Shown: piece by piece, positions 65-19,831 of the stretch
How positions within the stretch are numbered: the stretch's first letter is position 1
Layout: every line of letters starts with the position of its first letter
IMG/VR virus record: IMGVR_UViG_3300025141_000690
Location: 1-24,997 of that record
Origin: a virus
Direction: 5' to 3' (one strand)
Length of the DNA: 24,997 bases
Translations under genes and position numbers: made by a program
Notes under the pieces: generated by a model
Database searches by the model: none
What the model was told of the DNA's origin: nothing
What the model saw: only the letters and a program-made list of their open reading frames with translations

Positions 65-541
65 TTAACTTGGCTCCGTAGGCCATGTGACTGAATTAGG
101 AAAACCACCTTGAGCTGGGACATCTCTTAAAGCCTGACGATAAGTTGCCCACGCAGATGACATCGTAACGTCAGACAGCCCCATCCAATCTGTGTCTTTT
201 AATTTTTGGTCGCGTTCAGACCTGACTGCGGCAGCTTTTTCTGTGTTTAGTTGAGCCTGATATGCGGCTTCTTTTTCTGCTTTAGTGCCGTCACTGTCGG
301 TGGAAAAACGGTCTTGCTCTTCCCACACCTGTGTCCACTTTCCTCCAACCTGCGCTGGTGTTCCTTCAACAACAATCTTCATGTCAGAGGAAGCTGCTGG
401 CATGTTAACCGCAGTAATTTCGTCCCACCCAAGGTCGGCAAAAGTATCAACAATTTTGCTGAATGACACATTCTTATGAAGTGCTTTAACTTCGGCTTCG
501 GTCTTAACAGTTCCTGTATCTCTTTGTCGATAACTAGGCAT
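65..541 (-). CDS. Phage tail assembly chaperone-like protein
   Basis: A 158-residue protein. Its C-terminal third (about 108-158) has the pattern of the phage tail assembly chaperone family often encoded after tail fibres: charged RSERDQKLKDTDW, then WATYRQALRDVP, and a closing VTWPTEP. The first 60 residues look like a small separate domain, and residues 85-110 are probably helical. Family members are thought to help fibres fold or assemble rather than to stay in the virion. The start is an ATG behind AGAGG, and the gene follows the glycosyltransferase fusion by 11 bases. Family placement rests on the recognisable C-terminal pattern, and the exact client fibre is inferred from position. Confidence 0.7.
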   Translation of the reverse strand: MPSYRQRDTGTVKTEAEVKALHKNVSFSKIVDTFADLGWDEITAVNMPAASSDMKIVVEGTPAQVGGKWTQVWEEQDRFSTDSDGTKAEKEAAYQAQLNTEKAAAVRSERDQKLKDTDWMGLSDVTMSSAWATYRQALRDVPAQGGFPNSVTWPTEPS

Positions 542-552
542 CGTATTTACCT

Positions 553-2286
553 CTAGGCTGTCAGCCTTTCTTCAATATTCTTAAACGGAGCTTCCCACCG
601 GCCAAATTCTTCCTGCCGGAAAAGCGTCATGCTGTCGTAGTAAGGTGTGGAGTCTCCGTCTTTAGCATATAAAAAATAAGGCATAATTGGTGTGACTACC
701 CAAGTGTCTATACCCATGGCTGCTGACAGATGCGACACACTCGTACAACTTGATATAACAAGGTCACAACCTGCTGTTGCCTTTTGTGTGTCTTTCCAAG
801 TGTCTAAAACAGTTTCTTTAACCCAATCGGGTTTAGCCTCTGCGCCTTCATCTCGCTGTAAAGATACAAACTCAGCATCAATATTTTTTACAGACTCAAA
901 CATCAACTCGTAAGGAAACTTCTTGTGGTGCTCGTGTTCAAATGTGCTATTACCCTGCCACCGCAATCCAATACGCTTTTTGCTGTTTCTTTCTACTTTA
1001 GGCTTATCAATATAAGATTTCCCTGAAATGTCACCAAGCTCATAACCTAAAGGCACTACGGCACTCATCCCTGCTACCCAGTAGTCGTGGTATACACCAA
1101 AGACAGCGTTATGCTGAACTACCGCTGACACCCCTTCAACATCCGTGAATAAAGGAACGAGGTATCCGCTGCATCCGACAATAACCTTGCAACCTCTAGC
1201 GGCTATGTCTTTGGCGTACCGAACCTGATGAATCTGGTCTCCAAGACCTCCTTCAAGATAAAGCAACACAGTACCTTTAGCTTCGCCATCCCACTTAGGA
1301 GTGGGTACATTAGGAGCAGAGTTACCAAATACGCCAGCAATCCTGCCCTTGTCCATCAGCTTATAGCCTTCCTGTATTCTTCCCTGTCTTAGATAATGCC
1401 AGCCCCTGTTGTAAGCTGCTCTCAGGTTATTAGGCTCTTCGCGCTTTATTTTTTCTGCCAGTCGCCAAGCTTCTTCAAAGTTACCTTCGGTGGCAGCAGC
1501 TAATTGTAAATCTAGGTCTTTGACTTCTGGTTCTGTTTTCTTATCTGACCAAAACTCAGGTTGGCAAAACTCGTTGTAGTAATGACCTAAAACATCCTTA
1601 GCATCTTCGTTATGCTGTTTTTCCAACGTTGGCTTAATGTCATGTAGTCCTGCAAAACCATGAAGTTGTTCATCGTCTTCTTTGACACTCTCGCCATCAA
1701 TGTTTTTAAAGTCGTATTCAAAAGGTTCCAGCTCAAGAAACTTATGAATGCGCTCTAGTTCTTTTTCGGGTTGCGATAATAGGTTTTCGTATCCAACAAA
1801 ACAGAAACATTCAGGAAACGCCTCGTAACCCTCCCTGAGAGTTGCGTATGAACCCTTTAAATGCGCTATTAACTGTCCTGAGTACATAAACTCATTTAAA
1901 TCTTCTGGCTTAACTAGCCGTACAAATGAGGCTGCACACTCCGGTATATTTCGTACTGTCGCAATTATCTTTGGCTTTTTCTCTAACACTTGGTGCATTG
2001 CACCTAATATAACTTTCAACGGCCACGTTCTTGCTTTATCAATAACCACGCTTTCAGGAACATCATAAAAAGCATCAATCGTTCCCCGCATTGTTTTCAC
2101 TAATTTCTTTCTTTCGGGGTCGTTCTCGCCTAATAGATTACTTTCACTCCAAATGTTAGCAAGACTGTCTAAGGCATAAACTAACCCAGACGTTGTAGAG
2201 ACATGAACGTCTGTATTTTGATTGAGAATAGCGGCTAGAACAGTAGAGCCGCTTCTCGGCAATCCTGACAAAAAATTAAGGTTCAT
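553..2286 (-). CDS. Sulfotransferase-TPR-glycosyltransferase fusion protein
   Basis: A 577-residue fusion. Residues 1-245 look like a PAPS-dependent sulfotransferase: GLPRSGST at 8-15 matches the 5'-phosphosulfate loop, and TVRNIPECAASF (R112, S120) matches the 3'-phosphate site. Residues 255-315 resemble tetratricopeptide helices (NFEEAWRLAEKI, AAYNRGWHYLRQG). Residues 335-577 resemble a GT-B glycosyltransferase of the heptosyltransferase/TPR-linked kind: LEGGLGDQIHQVRYAKD at 344-360, GLRWQGN at 440-446, and DLVISSCTSVSHLSAAMG at 508-525. Such enzymes move a sulfo group and a sugar onto glycans or proteins. The ATG overlaps the RCC1 gene by 11 bases, tying it to the receptor-binding cluster. 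The target could be host surface glycan or a virion protein, and this is inference. No stop codon or frameshift separates the domains. Confidence 0.8.
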   Translation of the reverse strand: MNLNFLSGLPRSGSTVLAAILNQNTDVHVSTTSGLVYALDSLANIWSESNLLGENDPERKKLVKTMRGTIDAFYDVPESVVIDKARTWPLKVILGAMHQVLEKKPKIIATVRNIPECAASFVRLVKPEDLNEFMYSGQLIAHLKGSYATLREGYEAFPECFCFVGYENLLSQPEKELERIHKFLELEPFEYDFKNIDGESVKEDDEQLHGFAGLHDIKPTLEKQHNEDAKDVLGHYYNEFCQPEFWSDKKTEPEVKDLDLQLAAATEGNFEEAWRLAEKIKREEPNNLRAAYNRGWHYLRQGRIQEGYKLMDKGRIAGVFGNSAPNVPTPKWDGEAKGTVLLYLEGGLGDQIHQVRYAKDIAARGCKVIVGCSGYLVPLFTDVEGVSAVVQHNAVFGVYHDYWVAGMSAVVPLGYELGDISGKSYIDKPKVERNSKKRIGLRWQGNSTFEHEHHKKFPYELMFESVKNIDAEFVSLQRDEGAEAKPDWVKETVLDTWKDTQKATAGCDLVISSCTSVSHLSAAMGIDTWVVTPIMPYFLYAKDGDSTPYYDSMTLFRQEEFGRWEAPFKNIEERLTA

Positions 2287-3406
2287 AAAAAGCTAAATTA
2301 CCCCCGTAACCCAAACAACTTACAGCTTTCCAACTGGTTAAACTGCCAATCTGTTTTGGGGATGAGTAGTGAGTAGTGTTTCCTAGTCCTAGCTTGCCTC
2401 CTCCATTATTGCCCCATGACCACAAAGTTCCGTCAGTTTTAACACAAACAGAGTGCATTCCTCCCATGCTCATTTGTAACCAGTTTGTGAGCGCACCAAC
2501 TTGTTTGGGCGATGAATAAGAAGTTGTGTTTCCGTGCCCAAGTTTTCCATAACTGCCGCTACCCCAAGTCCATAGCGTATAATCTGTCTTCACACATCCT
2601 GAAAAATAGTTTGAGACGGCAGGGGTTGCCCAATTTGTTAACGCGCCTACTTGTTTTGGAGACGAGTACGAAGTGGTATTACCAAAACCAAGCCTTCCAG
2701 CACCACCGTTACCCCACGCCCACAAAGTTCCATCAGTTTTAACCGCTACCATGTGCTGACCGCTAACAGCGATTTCAGCCCAATTTGTTAAAGAGCCAAC
2801 TTGTACGGGAGAACTTCTATTGGTTATATCGCCATGTCCTGTTACGCCTGTAGCGCCATTGCCCCAAGTCCACAAGGTTCCATCGGTTTTAATTGCCGCA
2901 CTGCGAGATAAGGTTGGTGAAGCAGCAACTTTTGACCAGTTCGTTAAAGAACCAACTTGTTTGGGAGAAGAATAGTCAGATGTATTGCCTAACCCCAAAG
3001 CACCAAAAGAAGTGCCATTACCCCATGCCCACAACGTACCGTTCTTTTTCACCGCTAAACAATGCTCTCCGCCCATGCTCACTTCTGCCCAATCCGTGAG
3101 AGAGCCTACTTGTTTCGGTGATGAGTAACTGGTGGTATTGCCAAGCCCTAAATTTCCGTCAGTATTGTCTCCCCATGTGAACAATGCTCCGTTTTTGATT
3201 ACGCCAACACTATTTTTGGCTCCGTATTGACTTGTTGATAATTGAGTCCAAGTGTCCGCACTTCCAACAGTTTTAGGCGATGAATAGTTGGTGGTATTGC
3301 CCAAACCCAAAGCGCCATCAGTGCCTTTGCCCCACGACATCAACTGGTAATCAGTGGCCGTAGCGCCCCCTGAAGCGGCTTCTAATATTCGCTTAATATT
3401 GGTCAT
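2276..3406 (-). CDS. RCC1-like seven-repeat beta-propeller protein
   Basis: A 376-residue protein made almost wholly of seven repeats of about 49 residues, starting near residue 22. Each begins with W(G)-type LWxWGxG, continues with LGLGNTTxYSSPKQVG and LTNWxxVS, and ends with VKTDGT. This is the RCC1 repeat pattern, and seven blades would close one propeller. The first 20 residues are short and could attach it to the fibre. It follows the fibre gene (TAATG overlap at 3406) and precedes the sulfotransferase fusion, so a tail-tip or adhesion role is likely. Blade 4 has lost the LGLGNTT core (TGHGDITNRSS) and blade 5 ends in TDYT, so these blades have diverged. RCC1 propellers bind proteins or chromatin in other settings; ligand here unknown. 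Confidence 0.85.
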   Translation of the reverse strand: MTNIKRILEAASGGATATDYQLMSWGKGTDGALGLGNTTNYSSPKTVGSADTWTQLSTSQYGAKNSVGVIKNGALFTWGDNTDGNLGLGNTTSYSSPKQVGSLTDWAEVSMGGEHCLAVKKNGTLWAWGNGTSFGALGLGNTSDYSSPKQVGSLTNWSKVAASPTLSRSAAIKTDGTLWTWGNGATGVTGHGDITNRSSPVQVGSLTNWAEIAVSGQHMVAVKTDGTLWAWGNGGAGRLGFGNTTSYSSPKQVGALTNWATPAVSNYFSGCVKTDYTLWTWGSGSYGKLGHGNTTSYSSPKQVGALTNWLQMSMGGMHSVCVKTDGTLWSWGNNGGGKLGLGNTTHYSSPKQIGSLTSWKAVSCLGYGGNLAFYEP

Positions 3407-4521
3407 TAGCTAAGGTTCGCTCCCGCTAAGAACCCGTACCAACGAGTTCCACCGTCTGTGGTATAAAAAACCAGCACATCAACACCGCTTGCGGTGAGCG
3501 TAGGAGCAGTGCCTCCTGCCCAATCAACACTTGCTGGCCAGTTTACTGTCTGACTTCCACCGTTGGTTAGTGTCAAAGTAAAGCCACACAATTCATCAGA
3601 AGCTGTTGGGTTTGAAAAAGTAAAAGTATTAGCAGAGGTGTCTACTGTGGCAGTAACGGAATTACCCGCATTAAGATCAATATCCTGCGTACCACCGCCT
3701 GTTGATCCTATAGCATTAGTAATTTCGCCGTAATCTTTAAGATTAACAGCGGAGACTGTTTGGTCGGCTCCAGTTACCGCTCCGGCTAAGGTCACACCTG
3801 TTAGTGTAGGTGCTGTACCAAAGACCAATGCTCCTGACCCTGTTTCGTCAGTAACAGCACTGGCAAGGTTAGCCGAGGATGGGGTTCCCCACCATGTGGC
3901 AATACCCGTCCCTAAACTGGTAATTCCTGTGCCCCCGTTGGCTACGGGAAGAGTGCCCGTCACTTGAGAGGTCAGATCAACACTTCCAAGAGTGCCGCCG
4001 AGTGTCAAATTACCAGAACTTGTAACTGTTCCAGTAAGCGTAATTCCATTAACAGTGCCAGTACCCCCAACAGAAGTAACTGTACCCGCTCCGGTTTCGG
4101 TAGGGTTTGCATCTGCCACAGCAGCGCCAGCACCAGCCCCGTCAGTATAGATATACTTTTTAGCGCCACTTGCCACATTAACCGTAGCACCAGACCCCTG
4201 CTTGATCGTAATGATCTGACTGCCTGTAGTGGCGTTTTCTATTATCCAGACTTTGGATATGGTATTAGGGCCAAGTGTCACTACTCTCGTGGTAGTTAAA
4301 CTCACCGCAGAAGTAATCTTTAAATACAATGCGCGAGTGCCATCAGCGCTGGCATCAGGCATGGTAAAAGTTTCATTTGCGTCTGATGACATTTGCTTTG
4401 TGCCATACCCAAACGCATCGCTAACAAGAGACAGGTTAGTGTTGGTGGAGGCTCCCCATGTACCACTTTCATCACCTGTTGCGATCTCTTTCAGTCGCAA
4501 GTCATTTGCATAAGTTGCCAT
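3406..4521 (-). CDS. Tail fibre protein
   Basis: A 371-residue protein. The N-terminus (MATYANDLRLKEIATGDESG) is of the type seen in many phage fibres that begin near a base or tail adaptor. The centre holds GTLPVANGGTG (around 190-200), a very common shaft motif of trimeric phage fibres, within a long Thr/Gly/Ser-rich stretch (TVTSVGGTGTVNG, GTAPTLTGVTLAG). The last 100 residues form a likely beta-structured tip ending in a Trp-rich segment. There are almost no Cys or His residues. The ATG follows GAGG by seven bases. Its role is most likely host attachment together with the neighbouring RCC1 and 11-residue-repeat proteins. The receptor cannot be read from the sequence. Confidence 0.85.
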   Translation of the reverse strand: MATYANDLRLKEIATGDESGTWGASTNTNLSLVSDAFGYGTKQMSSDANETFTMPDASADGTRALYLKITSAVSLTTTRVVTLGPNTISKVWIIENATTGSQIITIKQGSGATVNVASGAKKYIYTDGAGAGAAVADANPTETGAGTVTSVGGTGTVNGITLTGTVTSSGNLTLGGTLGSVDLTSQVTGTLPVANGGTGITSLGTGIATWWGTPSSANLASAVTDETGSGALVFGTAPTLTGVTLAGAVTGADQTVSAVNLKDYGEITNAIGSTGGGTQDIDLNAGNSVTATVDTSANTFTFSNPTASDELCGFTLTLTNGGSQTVNWPASVDWAGGTAPTLTASGVDVLVFYTTDGGTRWYGFLAGANLS

Positions 4522-4538: not shown

Positions 4539-5360
4539 CTATGGAACAGGTGTCCAATTAGGTGTTTGTGAAGGATTAAGATTACTCCATCCCGGTGTTT
4601 GTGAAGGATTAAGATTACTCCATCCCGGTGTTTGTGATGGGTTAAGATTACTCCATCCCGGTGTTTGTGATGGGTTAAGGTTTACCCAACTAGGATTTTG
4701 TGAAGGATTAATATCCTCCCAGACCAAGACTCTTCCTACTTGACCAGTAGCACTTAGACCAACCGCATCAATAATTACATTTGTAAATACAGTAACCGAG
4801 CCAAGAGAAGTTGTGGCCGACACCCCAGTAACTGGGACTTCTATAAGAAGCTCAACAGTCACACCAGATAAACCGCTAACTGCCTCCAAGCTTCCGGCAG
4901 AAACACTTGCCTTTCCGGTAACAGACGTTGGTCCTGACAAGCCAGTAGTAGCAGCAAGACCTGTGGGATACACCGCCGTCTGCCAAACGGGAGCTGCTAC
5001 ACCAACCGCGCCAGTAGCAGCTACGCCAGTAACTGTAACCAGATCATTATGATGTACTGTAACCGACCCAACGGCAGTCGTGGCCTCAAGACTGCTTGGA
5101 AAAACCTCGCCTTTGCCCTGAACATTTGCTTCGCCTATAACGCCAGTGGCATAAACCCCAGTAACATTGACTGTGGCTCCAGATGTGACCGCTGCCGTTC
5201 CTACTTGCCCAGTGGCAGCTAGGGTATATTCGGTTTCACCCCAAACGCCTGTGTTCCAACCCTTAAGCCTTCCCCAGCCACTAAGGTAAAGGGTTTCGTT
5301 GGTGTCTTCTCCCCACTCACCATCACCCCAAGCGGCTCGACCCCAACCTACCGAAGACAT
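4539..5360 (-). CDS. Repetitive tail or fibre-like virion protein
   Basis: A 273-residue protein with three parts. Residues 1-40 are Gly/Trp rich (GWGRAAWGDGEWGE). Residues 48-215 are degenerate beta-type repeats around VTGVxATGxVGxVxV. Residues 218-273 are five 11-residue units of the form LNPSQTPGWSN, ending TPNWTPVP. Repeated Trp-Pro-Ser-Gln units at the end of a virion protein suggest an extended stalk or docking arm. The ATG is preceded by GGAG eight bases upstream. It sits between a conserved virion gene and the fibre gene, so a tail-fibre or tail-decoration role is likely. I recall similar WxxxxPSQxPxW repeats in marine phage tail genes; no enzymatic motif is visible. Confidence 0.7.
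   Translation of the reverse strand: MSSVGWGRAAWGDGEWGEDTNETLYLSGWGRLKGWNTGVWGETEYTLAATGQVGTAAVTSGATVNVTGVYATGVIGEANVQGKGEVFPSSLEATTAVGSVTVHHNDLVTVTGVAATGAVGVAAPVWQTAVYPTGLAATTGLSGPTSVTGKASVSAGSLEAVSGLSGVTVELLIEVPVTGVSATTSLGSVTVFTNVIIDAVGLSATGQVGRVLVWEDINPSQNPSWVNLNPSQTPGWSNLNPSQTPGWSNLNPSQTPGWSNLNPSQTPNWTPVP
4561..4725 (-). repeat. Five 33-bp tandem repeats inside a virion gene
   Basis: Five in-frame 33-bp units start at 4561, 4594, 4627, 4660 and 4693. The first two are identical and the third differs by only two bases. The fourth and fifth have diverged, mostly in their second half. Each unit encodes an 11-residue Asn-Pro-Ser-Gln-Thr-Pro-Gly-Trp repeat. Near-identity of the inner copies points to recent expansion by recombination or slippage, so copy number may vary between related phages. 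Confidence 0.95.
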
Positions 5361-17669: not shown

Positions 17670-17770
17670 TGATTAATAATAGTTGGCGGGAGCGGCTACT
17701 AGCAGGGTTCCGATAGATTAACCCGTGGGTTCGCACCACTATTACACTCCCATGATTAATAATAGTTGGC
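17670..17770. repeat. 18-bp direct repeat duplicating the terL 3' end, around a cloverleaf-like insert
   Basis: TGATTAATAATAGTTGGC occurs exactly at 17670-17687 and 17753-17770, 83 bases apart. The right copy is the end of terL (its last codons and stop on the minus strand). The 65 bases between open with GGGAGCG (17688-17694) and close with CACTCCC (17745-17751), which pair on the minus strand with one G-U. Inside are three short stems: 17695-17703, 17705-17724 and 17725-17739. On the minus strand this gives a cloverleaf-like fold followed by G-CCA. It has no normal T-loop or 7-base anticodon loop, so it is not a usual tRNA. Confidence 0.75.
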
Positions 17771-19261
17771 CGTTCTTGGCATGTGCTGCTCTTCGGGTTC
17801 ATCCGAAGACAGGCTTAGAAAGCCTCCCTGCCTGAATCTGAGTAATGCCTGAGTGGATGAGTCCACCAAGTCATCATGTTCGCCCACTGGAAAGGCGGCG
17901 AATTCGTCTACAACTTCTTCGGCAAATCTGGTTTCTGGACACCAGACTACACCTGATGCGAACAAGTCAGCAACAGCGTTAACCCTTGCGATCTTGTCGT
18001 TACCCCGTGTCGGGGTATATTCAGCCACCGGAATACCCATTGCCCTGAGTTCAAATATCAATGGAGTGCCTGCGGCTTTAGCCTCAACAATGAAAGCATC
18101 GGGCTTCATTTCAAGATAAAGCTCATGAGCGACTTTTTTGAGTTCGGGGAATTCAAGACGTTCTTTGTAGGCATCCAGAAGGATGATATTGGGCTTGGTG
18201 CGCCCTTCGTCATCAGGAGCGTAGAAAACGCCCCATGTGGTGCAGGCTGAGTAATCAGCCCGTTCTGTCTTGAGAAAAGCGGTATCCCAAGACTGTATTA
18301 CGAATTCGCATTGGGGTGGGTGTTCCTGTTCCCACACTCTCCACCACTCCTTTTTGACCAGCGCCCCTTCTTCGGCTGTGGGTATCTGCTGGTACTGAGC
18401 GTTCCACTTGCTCGGTGGCAGCTCGCTCTTGAGAGCTTCCAGCTCTTTAAGGCTCCAGAATTCCGGCCATAATGGATTGCCTGACGGCATGAGTGCCGGA
18501 AACTCTATTATCTCCCATTCATCTACCCCTTCTCTTTGAGTTGAGGACTTGACTATCTTTCCGGTCAGATCACGCATATGCCAGCGTGTCATAACGATAA
18601 CGATAGCTCCTCCGGGTTGTAGACGTTGGCGAGGGCCGGATGTGTACCATTCATAAGTCTTGTCAAAGACAGAGGGGTCAATGCTCTGTCCCTCCTGCTC
18701 ACTATGAGGGTCATCAATGATGAGCAGGTCAGCGCCCTTACCTGTTACCGCACCACCAACACCGATAGCGAAGTATTCGCCACCTTTATTGGTACTCCAT
18801 CGCCCAGCCGCTTTGGAATCGGCCCTTAATGCCAACTTTGGGAAAACCTTTTTAAAATCAGCGTCATCCACTAGGTTACGAACCTTCCTGCCAAAACCAA
18901 CTGATAACTCAGCGGTGTGGGCAGTCTGAATGATCTTCTTCTCAGGGTATTGGCCCAAAAACCACGCAGGCAATAGATAGGAAGCAAACTCACTCTTTGT
19001 ATGACGCGGCGGCATGTTAACAATCAGCCGCTTTAAATCACCACAGGCAATGCGTTCAAAAGCATCGGCCATGATCTTGTGATGGCGGCCTTCAATAAAG
19101 GCAGGCCACATGTACTTAACAAAATCAATGAAATGCTCCCGCGCCGCTTCCCGCTTCTTGGCAGTATCCAACGCGGTTAATAAATCCAGTATTTCTTGCT
19201 GCTTTTCAGGAGGTAACTGATCTATCGTGGATAGCACTGAAGGATCAACTTTAACAGACAT
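17756..19261 (-). CDS. terL: Terminase large subunit
   Basis: A 501-residue DNA-packaging motor. The ATPase half shows a Walker A-like NMPPRHTKSE (82-91), Walker B LLIIDDP with D183-D184, and the coupling motif VMTRWH (223-228). The C-terminal RNase H-like nuclease shows SWDTAF with D326, VEAKAAG with E393, and GEHDDLVDS with D463-D464 and D467. All main catalytic residues look present. It cuts concatemeric DNA and drives it through the portal using ATP. The ATG at 19261 has GGAG six bases upstream, just outside a large palindrome that forms its leader. Only the 663-bp separation from terS is unusual, as the two are normally adjacent. Confidence 0.95.
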   Translation of the reverse strand: MSVKVDPSVLSTIDQLPPEKQQEILDLLTALDTAKKREAAREHFIDFVKYMWPAFIEGRHHKIMADAFERIACGDLKRLIVNMPPRHTKSEFASYLLPAWFLGQYPEKKIIQTAHTAELSVGFGRKVRNLVDDADFKKVFPKLALRADSKAAGRWSTNKGGEYFAIGVGGAVTGKGADLLIIDDPHSEQEGQSIDPSVFDKTYEWYTSGPRQRLQPGGAIVIVMTRWHMRDLTGKIVKSSTQREGVDEWEIIEFPALMPSGNPLWPEFWSLKELEALKSELPPSKWNAQYQQIPTAEEGALVKKEWWRVWEQEHPPQCEFVIQSWDTAFLKTERADYSACTTWGVFYAPDDEGRTKPNIILLDAYKERLEFPELKKVAHELYLEMKPDAFIVEAKAAGTPLIFELRAMGIPVAEYTPTRGNDKIARVNAVADLFASGVVWCPETRFAEEVVDEFAAFPVGEHDDLVDSSTQALLRFRQGGFLSLSSDEPEEQHMPRTANYY

Positions 19262-19443: not shown

Positions 19444-19530
19444 TGTTACAGCAGACGTTTTTTAATTTAAATAGGGTATTTCGATAGAGGTTAAACGCTT
19501 ACTGCTGACAGGTCATGGGTAGTAAATAAG

Positions 19531-19610
19531 AATTCCTAAGAAATCCTAAGATTTCGTTAGATTTCGTTAGATTTCGTTAGATTTCGTTAGATTTAGTAAG
19601 AAATCCTAAG
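19531..19610. repeat. Eight 10-bp tandem repeats, in helical phase
   Basis: Eight consecutive 10-bp units lie on one register: AATTCCTAAG, AAATCCTAAG, four identical ATTTCGTTAG, ATTTAGTAAG and AAATCCTAAG. The unit before (AGTAAATAAG) may be a ninth, degenerate copy. All end in (T/A)AAG or TTAG. A 10-bp period places each copy on nearly the same face of the helix, as expected for stacked binding of a protein. The unit is unlike coding repeats and no reading frame of note covers it. Confidence 0.9.
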
Positions 19611-19831
19611 ATTCAGGTACGGTTTCCAAAATTTTGCAGAAAATTTTTTGCCGATATTTGTGTGGCACTATCTGACGAAAAAAAGGGTTGAGACATATTA
19701 CAAGTGATGCGTGAAAAGTGAGGTTAGATGAAATTTGCGAAATCGTTTGCGTGGAATACTATGTATATATGCACGGGTAGTCGCTGCTCTCGGGGGGGGT
19801 GTTATCATGGGGGTGGCTGACTGGGTAAAAT

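Follow-up and report, generated by a model that had tools for sequence, protein, structure and literature searches.

The stretch of viral DNA analysed here, called the window below, spans 24,997 nucleotides (positions 1 to 24,997 of IMG/VR record IMGVR_UViG_3300025141_000690) and carries near its beginning the minus-strand genes listed in table 1. One of these genes combines, in a single reading frame, a sulfotransferase domain (ST), a short tetratricopeptide repeat region (TPR) and a glycosyltransferase domain of the GT-B type (GT). It overlaps by 11 bp the gene for an RCC1 beta-propeller protein and follows a fibre-like gene, an arrangement that had been read correctly from the DNA letters in the original prediction. 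The product of the RCC1 gene matches PF00415 with an E value of 2.8e-64 in seven stretches. The window also contains two tandem repeats: one of 33 bp (4561-4711, 4.6 copies), which encodes NPSQTPGWSNL-like repeats within the open reading frame at 4539-5360, and a short A+T-rich one with the 10-bp unit TAAGATTTCG (19527-19613), situated in the gap that separates the terminase gene (17756-19261) from the next listed open reading frame.

Table 1. Features of the fusion locus, with their coordinates in the window and the basis of each assignment
Feature	Position	Strand	Basis or remark
ST-TPR-GT fusion gene	553..2286	-	577 aa, ATG start, stop codon 553-555
Sulfotransferase domain, N-terminal, residues 1-250	1537..2286	-	Pfam Sulfotransfer_3, TPST2 profile, TPST1 5wrj fold
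GLPRSGST, predicted 5'-phosphosulfate-binding loop, residues 8-15	2242..2265	-	conserved in 41 homologues
R112 ... S120, predicted 3'-phosphate-binding residues	1927..1953	-	both invariant, 41 homologues
Short TPR, residues 256-321; candidate arm for binding the acceptor	1324..1521	-	weak Pfam TPR; AspH, OGT folds
GT-B domain, residues 338-577, heptosyltransferase-like fold	556..1275	-	WaaC 2h1f, TibC fold matches
D350 in GGLGDQ, candidate catalytic Asp (WaaC D13 / TibC D110 position)	1237..1239	-	invariant in A1, A4, A5
SSCTSVSH motif, residues 512-519	730..753	-	SVDTS at the place of the Cys in several bacterial TPR-GTs
Gene for the RCC1 beta-propeller protein (376 aa), the proposed tail adhesin and acceptor	2276..3406	-	Pfam RCC1
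Tail-fibre-like gene, upstream of RCC1	3406..4521	-	phrog_9017 tail fiber, E 4.7e-14
Tail fibre assembly/chaperone gene, downstream	65..541	-	PF16778 Phage_tail_APC, E 1.2e-21; phrog_4912

Predicted domains and folds of the fusion protein

The original prediction described one frame joining a PAPS-dependent ST domain to a GT-B-like domain, and both Pfam and the modelled folds agree with it. In profile searches the ST domain was recovered well above the cut-off (Sulfotransfer_3 at residues 5-189, E 1.3e-14, 55.4 bits against a gathering score of 27; also Sulfotransfer_1, E 6e-10) and weak TPR models matched at residues 263-313, whereas the C-terminal GT part matched no Pfam model and no GT family. 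The PHROG match of the GT domain was marginal only, and its sequence profile found nothing meaningful in the PDB, in which fold comparison alone gave matches. The motifs quoted at the outset are all present, namely GLPRSGST (residues 8-15), R112, S120, GGLGDQ (346-351) and DLVISSCTSVSHLS (508-521). In an alignment of 41 homologues, G8, P10-S14 (including R11), Thr32, R112, S120, D350 and C514 are invariant and T15 is Thr in 40; the S-C ... H residues of SSCTSVSH are kept in every aligned phage TPR-GT. At the level of sequence, the predicted PAPS-site residues are intact in the fusion protein. We place D350 in correspondence with D110 of TibC and D13 of WaaC on the basis of its location after the first strand of the domain and of the candidate base reported for TibC (PMC4358343).

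An AlphaFold2 model of the fusion, a check recommended in the original prediction, was built on its family alignment (pLDDT 83, pTM 0.56) and displays the ST fold at residues 1-254, the TPR at 256-321 and the GT-B fold at 338-577. The modelled ST region is most similar to TPST1 (5wrj, Z 17.1 over 233 residues, rmsd 3.7), followed by heparan-sulfate 3-O-sulfotransferases (Z near 14), while the TPR region resembles those of AspH (Z 11.7) and OGT (Z 11.0). The GT-B region comes closest to WaaC (2h1f, Z 16.8), WaaF (16.1) and TibC (15.7), and this ranking is retained when TPR-GT is modelled alone with a more diverse alignment (pLDDT 91, pTM 0.89), the values then being 16.4 for WaaC (226 residues), 16.0 for WaaF and 15.1 for TibC. 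With respect to GT9-type heptosyltransferases, the domain thus has the WaaC/WaaF fold in its model but lacks the Pfam sequence match.

TPST1 and TPST2 are the nearest proteins of solved fold for the N-terminal domain, and the sequence profile of the family matches TPST2 with an E value of 2.3e-5. In this comparison K84 aligns with a Lys of TPST, and the invariant Thr32 aligns with the catalytic Glu of TPSTs (Glu99 of TPST2). Because Thr32 occupies the position of this Glu, the N-terminal domain is not classed here as a TPST, even though its model has the corresponding fold, and homology with TPSTs assigns no catalytic base to the predicted ST domain. The fusion differs from TPSTs also in the TPR-GT that is attached to it.

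The succession of TPR and GT-B domains recalls FlmG of Caulobacter crescentus, a cytoplasmic flagellin O-glycosyltransferase with an acceptor-binding N-terminal TPR and a C-terminal GT-B domain (PMC7591256). The likeness lies in the domain layout, here partly modelled, and in a surface appendage as the target, which in our case is proposed; FlmG, however, is described without an ST domain and has pseudaminic acid as donor and flagellin as acceptor (PMC7591256). TibC, a heptosyltransferase acting on the adhesin TibA with Asp D110 as candidate base (PMC4358343), shares with the fusion the GT-B fold (Z about 15) and the candidate Asp, and its acceptor is a repetitive adhesin. It differs in forming an iron-bound dodecamer, to be compared here with a single-chain model only, in having an autotransporter as acceptor and in lacking a fused ST (PMC4358343).

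Homologues and relatives of the fusion

A scan of viral contigs returned 103 stretches, 100 of which encode a relative of the fusion; 80 of these relatives were retained, with 63-95% identity. About 70 of the 80 are single frames of at least 540 amino acids containing both domains, the remainder being truncated at contig ends, and comparison with the three closest relatives gave dN/dS values of 0.04-0.07 in each catalytic domain, which indicates strong purifying selection on both. With about 70 full-length homologues and a dN/dS near 0.05 for either domain, the fusion must be considered real, and a sequencing error or chimera joining two genes, the pitfall named in the original prediction, is ruled out. 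The fusion had been called unfamiliar, and we found no description of it in the papers searched; yet it is not an isolated oddity, since the ST-TPR-GT combination is, on the evidence of these contigs, widespread among environmental phages. The collection of isolate phages has no record covering 80% of the fusion protein.

The terminase of the window is nearest to that of Pelagibacter phage HTVC027P (55% identity). Among 16 long contigs with the fusion, a closely related terminase (53-70%) occurs in seven, while two give no more than a weak match and seven none; from these mixed matches it follows that at least two phage lineages probably possess the fusion gene, with the reservation that the contigs may be fragments. 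In one contig (L059, G414:C1:7029-8996) the terminase large subunit is encoded in one frame of 669 amino acids, some 164 of which form an insertion relative to the terminase of the window, possibly an intein.

Three other explanations for particular matches were discarded. A bacterial origin of the fusion rested on a sole genome match filed as Halothiobacillus (L086), a short contig that also encodes fibre-like, fam4-like and RCC1 proteins and is most likely phage DNA. An intron or insertion suggested by the long match span in L053 and L067 turned out to be a separate second sulfotransferase gene downstream, and membership of a phage-defence family was dropped, the fusion being without any PADLOC match.

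In a tree of the GT domain the fusions cluster together (28 rows, five changes against 19.9 in shuffles), some of the rows scored as GT only being truncated by contig ends. The GT of a fusion (L147) and that of a GT-only gene (L117) are 86% identical, and therefore the ST part has been gained or lost; in the latter locus the RCC1 stop lies 2 bp before the GT ATG. Among phage records, the closest RCC1 proteins (39-42% identity) are found in AG-345-E08, S-SRM01 and BUCT-ZZ01, all of which have a TPR-GT and which represent three of the four distinct phages with TPR-GT in that collection; the fourth, a TPR-GT-like match in MW202512 (24%), has no RCC1 annotated nearby. The isolated cyanophages BUCT-ZZ01 and S-SRM01 resemble our locus in that a TPR-GT gene comes directly after an RCC1 gene, but neither has the ST-TPR-GT fusion. 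In BUCT-ZZ01 the TPR-GT is fused to a C-terminal methyltransferase-like domain, as it is in L097 and L108, whereas the baseplate/tail-fibre region of S-SRM01 has a TPR-GT gene and, apart from it, an ST gene, both placed after RCC1 genes. The proteins concerned are UTS52180.1 (RCC1) and UTS52179.1 (TPR-GT with the methyltransferase-like domain) in BUCT-ZZ01, and gp335, gp337 and gp344 (RCC1), gp338 (TPR-GT) and gp345 (ST) in S-SRM01. The presence or absence of ST and the methyltransferase fusion would be expected of tailoring modules.

RCC1 genes also occur in arrays with other enzymes. In AG-345-E08 (L084, 422-10769) they are interleaved with genes for a 2OG-Fe(II) oxygenase, TPR-GT, ST and GT25, and in S-SRM01 (L304, 8329-21159) the RCC1 array is interspersed with modifying-enzyme genes. 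Taken together, the two arrays comprise 2OG-Fe(II) oxygenase, TPR-GT, GT25 or other GT, sulfotransferase and epimerase, and look like sets of enzymes modifying virion proteins.

Homologues of the GT domain are present in 93 of 398 Pseudomonadota genomes. The bacterial TPR-GTs (RefSeq 'tetratricopeptide repeat-containing glycosyltransferase family protein') have a TPR and the same GT domain, but they are longer, several have SVDTS instead of SSCTS, and the short flanking sequences read for 29 bacterial TPR-GT loci showed no RCC1 gene. One bacterial protein of 1061 amino acids (L311:232-3417) has the order TPR-GT-ST, with a long TPR array, GT at residues 489-753 and a C-terminal ST at 785-1014. 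Given this order of GT before ST, the combination of the two probably arose more than once.

Association with RCC1 and donor supply genes

In fusion loci the genes come in the order fibre, fam4, one or two RCC1, fusion, up to two RCC1 and chaperone. For 58 fusion genes the contig extends 1.2 kb or more in either direction; 54 of them have RCC1 as immediate neighbour on at least one side (51 upstream, 44 downstream) and the other four have it elsewhere in the locus. A reverse scan with the TPR-GT alignment produced 80 loci, and RCC1 lies immediately upstream of the unfused TPR-GT in all 68 that have enough upstream sequence, as well as in 20 of 20 when the GTs are grouped into clusters at 80% identity; each set consists of related loci, and these counts are not numbers of independent events.

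Since searches for close relatives of single RCC1 proteins gave too few loci, we scanned viral contigs with a degenerate RCC1 DNA motif, which produced at least 120 loci, 111 of them with an RCC1 open reading frame; a few of these share a contig or lie on contigs of the fusion set. Among the matches listed, 60 of the 111 carry TPR-GT and/or ST (18 the fusion, 28 GT only, seven GT plus a separate ST and seven ST only), and of the 70 enzyme genes 50 directly adjoin a same-strand RCC1 gene, as against 20.6 +/- 3.3 in permutations, none of 2000 reaching that number. Loci of tail-collar fibres, a small and weak control (13 loci, 123 kb), contained no such enzyme gene. In two near loci the RCC1 proteins are 72% and 66% identical where the enzymes are 95% and 91% identical, and RCC1 thus changes more quickly than the enzyme, as would be expected of a protein that binds receptors.

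An APS-kinase-like gene is found in 40 of 80 fusion loci versus none of 80 GT-only loci and, among the matches listed for the RCC1-motif set, in nine of 34 loci with ST versus four of 80 without, the tests of this association being inflated by shared ancestry. The designation reflects Pfam APS_kinase matches above the cut-off in the two members tested, with scores below the NCBIfam equivalog cut-offs. Longer members of this family (fam5; L074:7147-7929) fuse the APS-kinase-like domain to a C-terminal nucleotidyltransferase with a NadM-like match.

Genes matching HldE domains and HldD are present in nine of 80 fusion loci and, among the matches listed, in eight of 51 enzyme-free RCC1 loci. HldE kinase-like, HldE adenylyltransferase-like and HldD-like genes occur together in six contigs (L030, L059, L063, L071, L119 and L142), which by sequence similarity encode part of the ADP-heptose pathway. 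These genes were rejected as specific partners of the enzyme, being present in enzyme-free RCC1 loci as well, and because they are not specific to fusion loci ADP-heptose is retained as a lead only.

Proposed function and its alternatives

The position of TPR-GT directly beside RCC1 in many environmental phages suggests a phage that adds sugar and sulfate to the protein with which it recognises its host. We propose, with a probability of roughly 0.6, that the fusion is an enzyme with two activities which serves to mature the RCC1 beta-propeller tail protein encoded by the overlapping gene. FlmG provides a precedent for a TPR-GT devoted to an appendage protein, and TibC one for a heptosyltransferase fold that works on an adhesin. 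The enzyme would be made late, together with the tail genes; its TPR would hold the RCC1 protein while the GT-B domain would add a sugar to Ser/Thr residues in the blade loops, ADP-heptose being the leading, weakly supported, candidate donor. The ST domain would then use PAPS, the supply of which may be raised by the product of the APS-kinase-like gene, to sulfate that glycan or the protein. The repeated blades would show the modification many times, and this would tune stability, the binding of receptors or the evasion of host factors. Counting against this maturation role are Thr32 in place of the catalytic Glu of TPSTs, the GT domain having no Pfam family and a marginal PHROG match, and Cys514, which replaces an Asp common in bacterial homologues. 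The linkage between RCC1 and the enzyme could also reflect separate roles in host interaction.

More tentatively, and at somewhat less than even odds, RCC1 proteins may constitute a widespread class of tail adhesins needing a dedicated TPR-GT, with one enzyme in this lineage both glycosylating and sulfating them to yield a sulfated glycoprotein surface in contact with the host. If true, there would be a large, so far unnamed class of tail adhesins with its own modifying enzyme, and an explanation for the sulfotransferases of some marine and freshwater phages, enzymes whose role in phages has been termed unclear (PMC10580990). The literature searched contains no description that links a phage sulfotransferase to RCC1, to a glycosyltransferase or to tail proteins. 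Host range and receptor binding would moreover hinge on a chemistry of glycan and sulfate that fibre models based on sequence miss. The two isolated cyanophages with unfused or methyltransferase-fused TPR-GT, one of them growing on Synechococcus elongatus PCC 7942, make these ideas directly testable.

The main rival is modification of the host surface, whereby the enzyme would, during infection, glycosylate and sulfate the LPS, capsule or O-antigen of the host, thereby excluding competing phages, and would adjoin the adhesin genes through joint evolution. The original prediction had weighed such masking of the host against modification of the phage's own fibres, and our results bear out its interpretation in part and strongly favour the latter over the former. 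LPS heptosyltransferases such as WaaC and WaaF (Z 16) are indeed among the nearest folds of the GT domain and some loci have genes for ADP-heptose synthesis, but the linkage is almost absolute to one protein family (RCC1, 68 of 68 unfused loci and 54 of 58 fusions), the gene sits inside the tail module overlapping RCC1, the small control of collar-type fibre loci has none, and the TPR arm suits a protein acceptor. We consequently regard a host-surface target as unlikely.

Slightly less probable still is that the ST domain acts independently of the GT and sulfates Tyr in an RCC1 loop (TxYSSPxQ), a reading which is compatible with maturation of RCC1 by the fusion and differs from it in the acceptor of the sulfate. 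TPST is the best match in fold and profile, some RCC1 loci have an ST without a GT, and Tyr precedes SSPxQ in 67% of the RCC1 repeats of fusion loci compared with 9% of those of GT-only loci. Against this, the catalytic Glu of TPSTs is replaced, the share of repeats with Tyr is as high as 32% in loci without enzymes, and several fusion loci (L163, L165, L175 and L209) have no Tyr at that position of the loop; strict covariation of Tyr with ST was accordingly abandoned, the relation being a trend and not a rule.

We consider it improbable that the target is a virion protein other than RCC1, such as the long tail fibre, the fam4 protein or the tail chaperone; genes for these proteins lie near the fusion in many loci, but RCC1 is the sole neighbour common to fusion loci, GT-only loci and the cyanophages. 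Finally, an inactive or non-enzymatic remnant with a structural or chaperone role for RCC1, to which the TPR arm and the unusual Cys in the GT motif might point, is very improbable in view of the invariant PAPS-site residues and D350, the dN/dS near 0.05 in both domains and the co-occurring APS-kinase-like gene.
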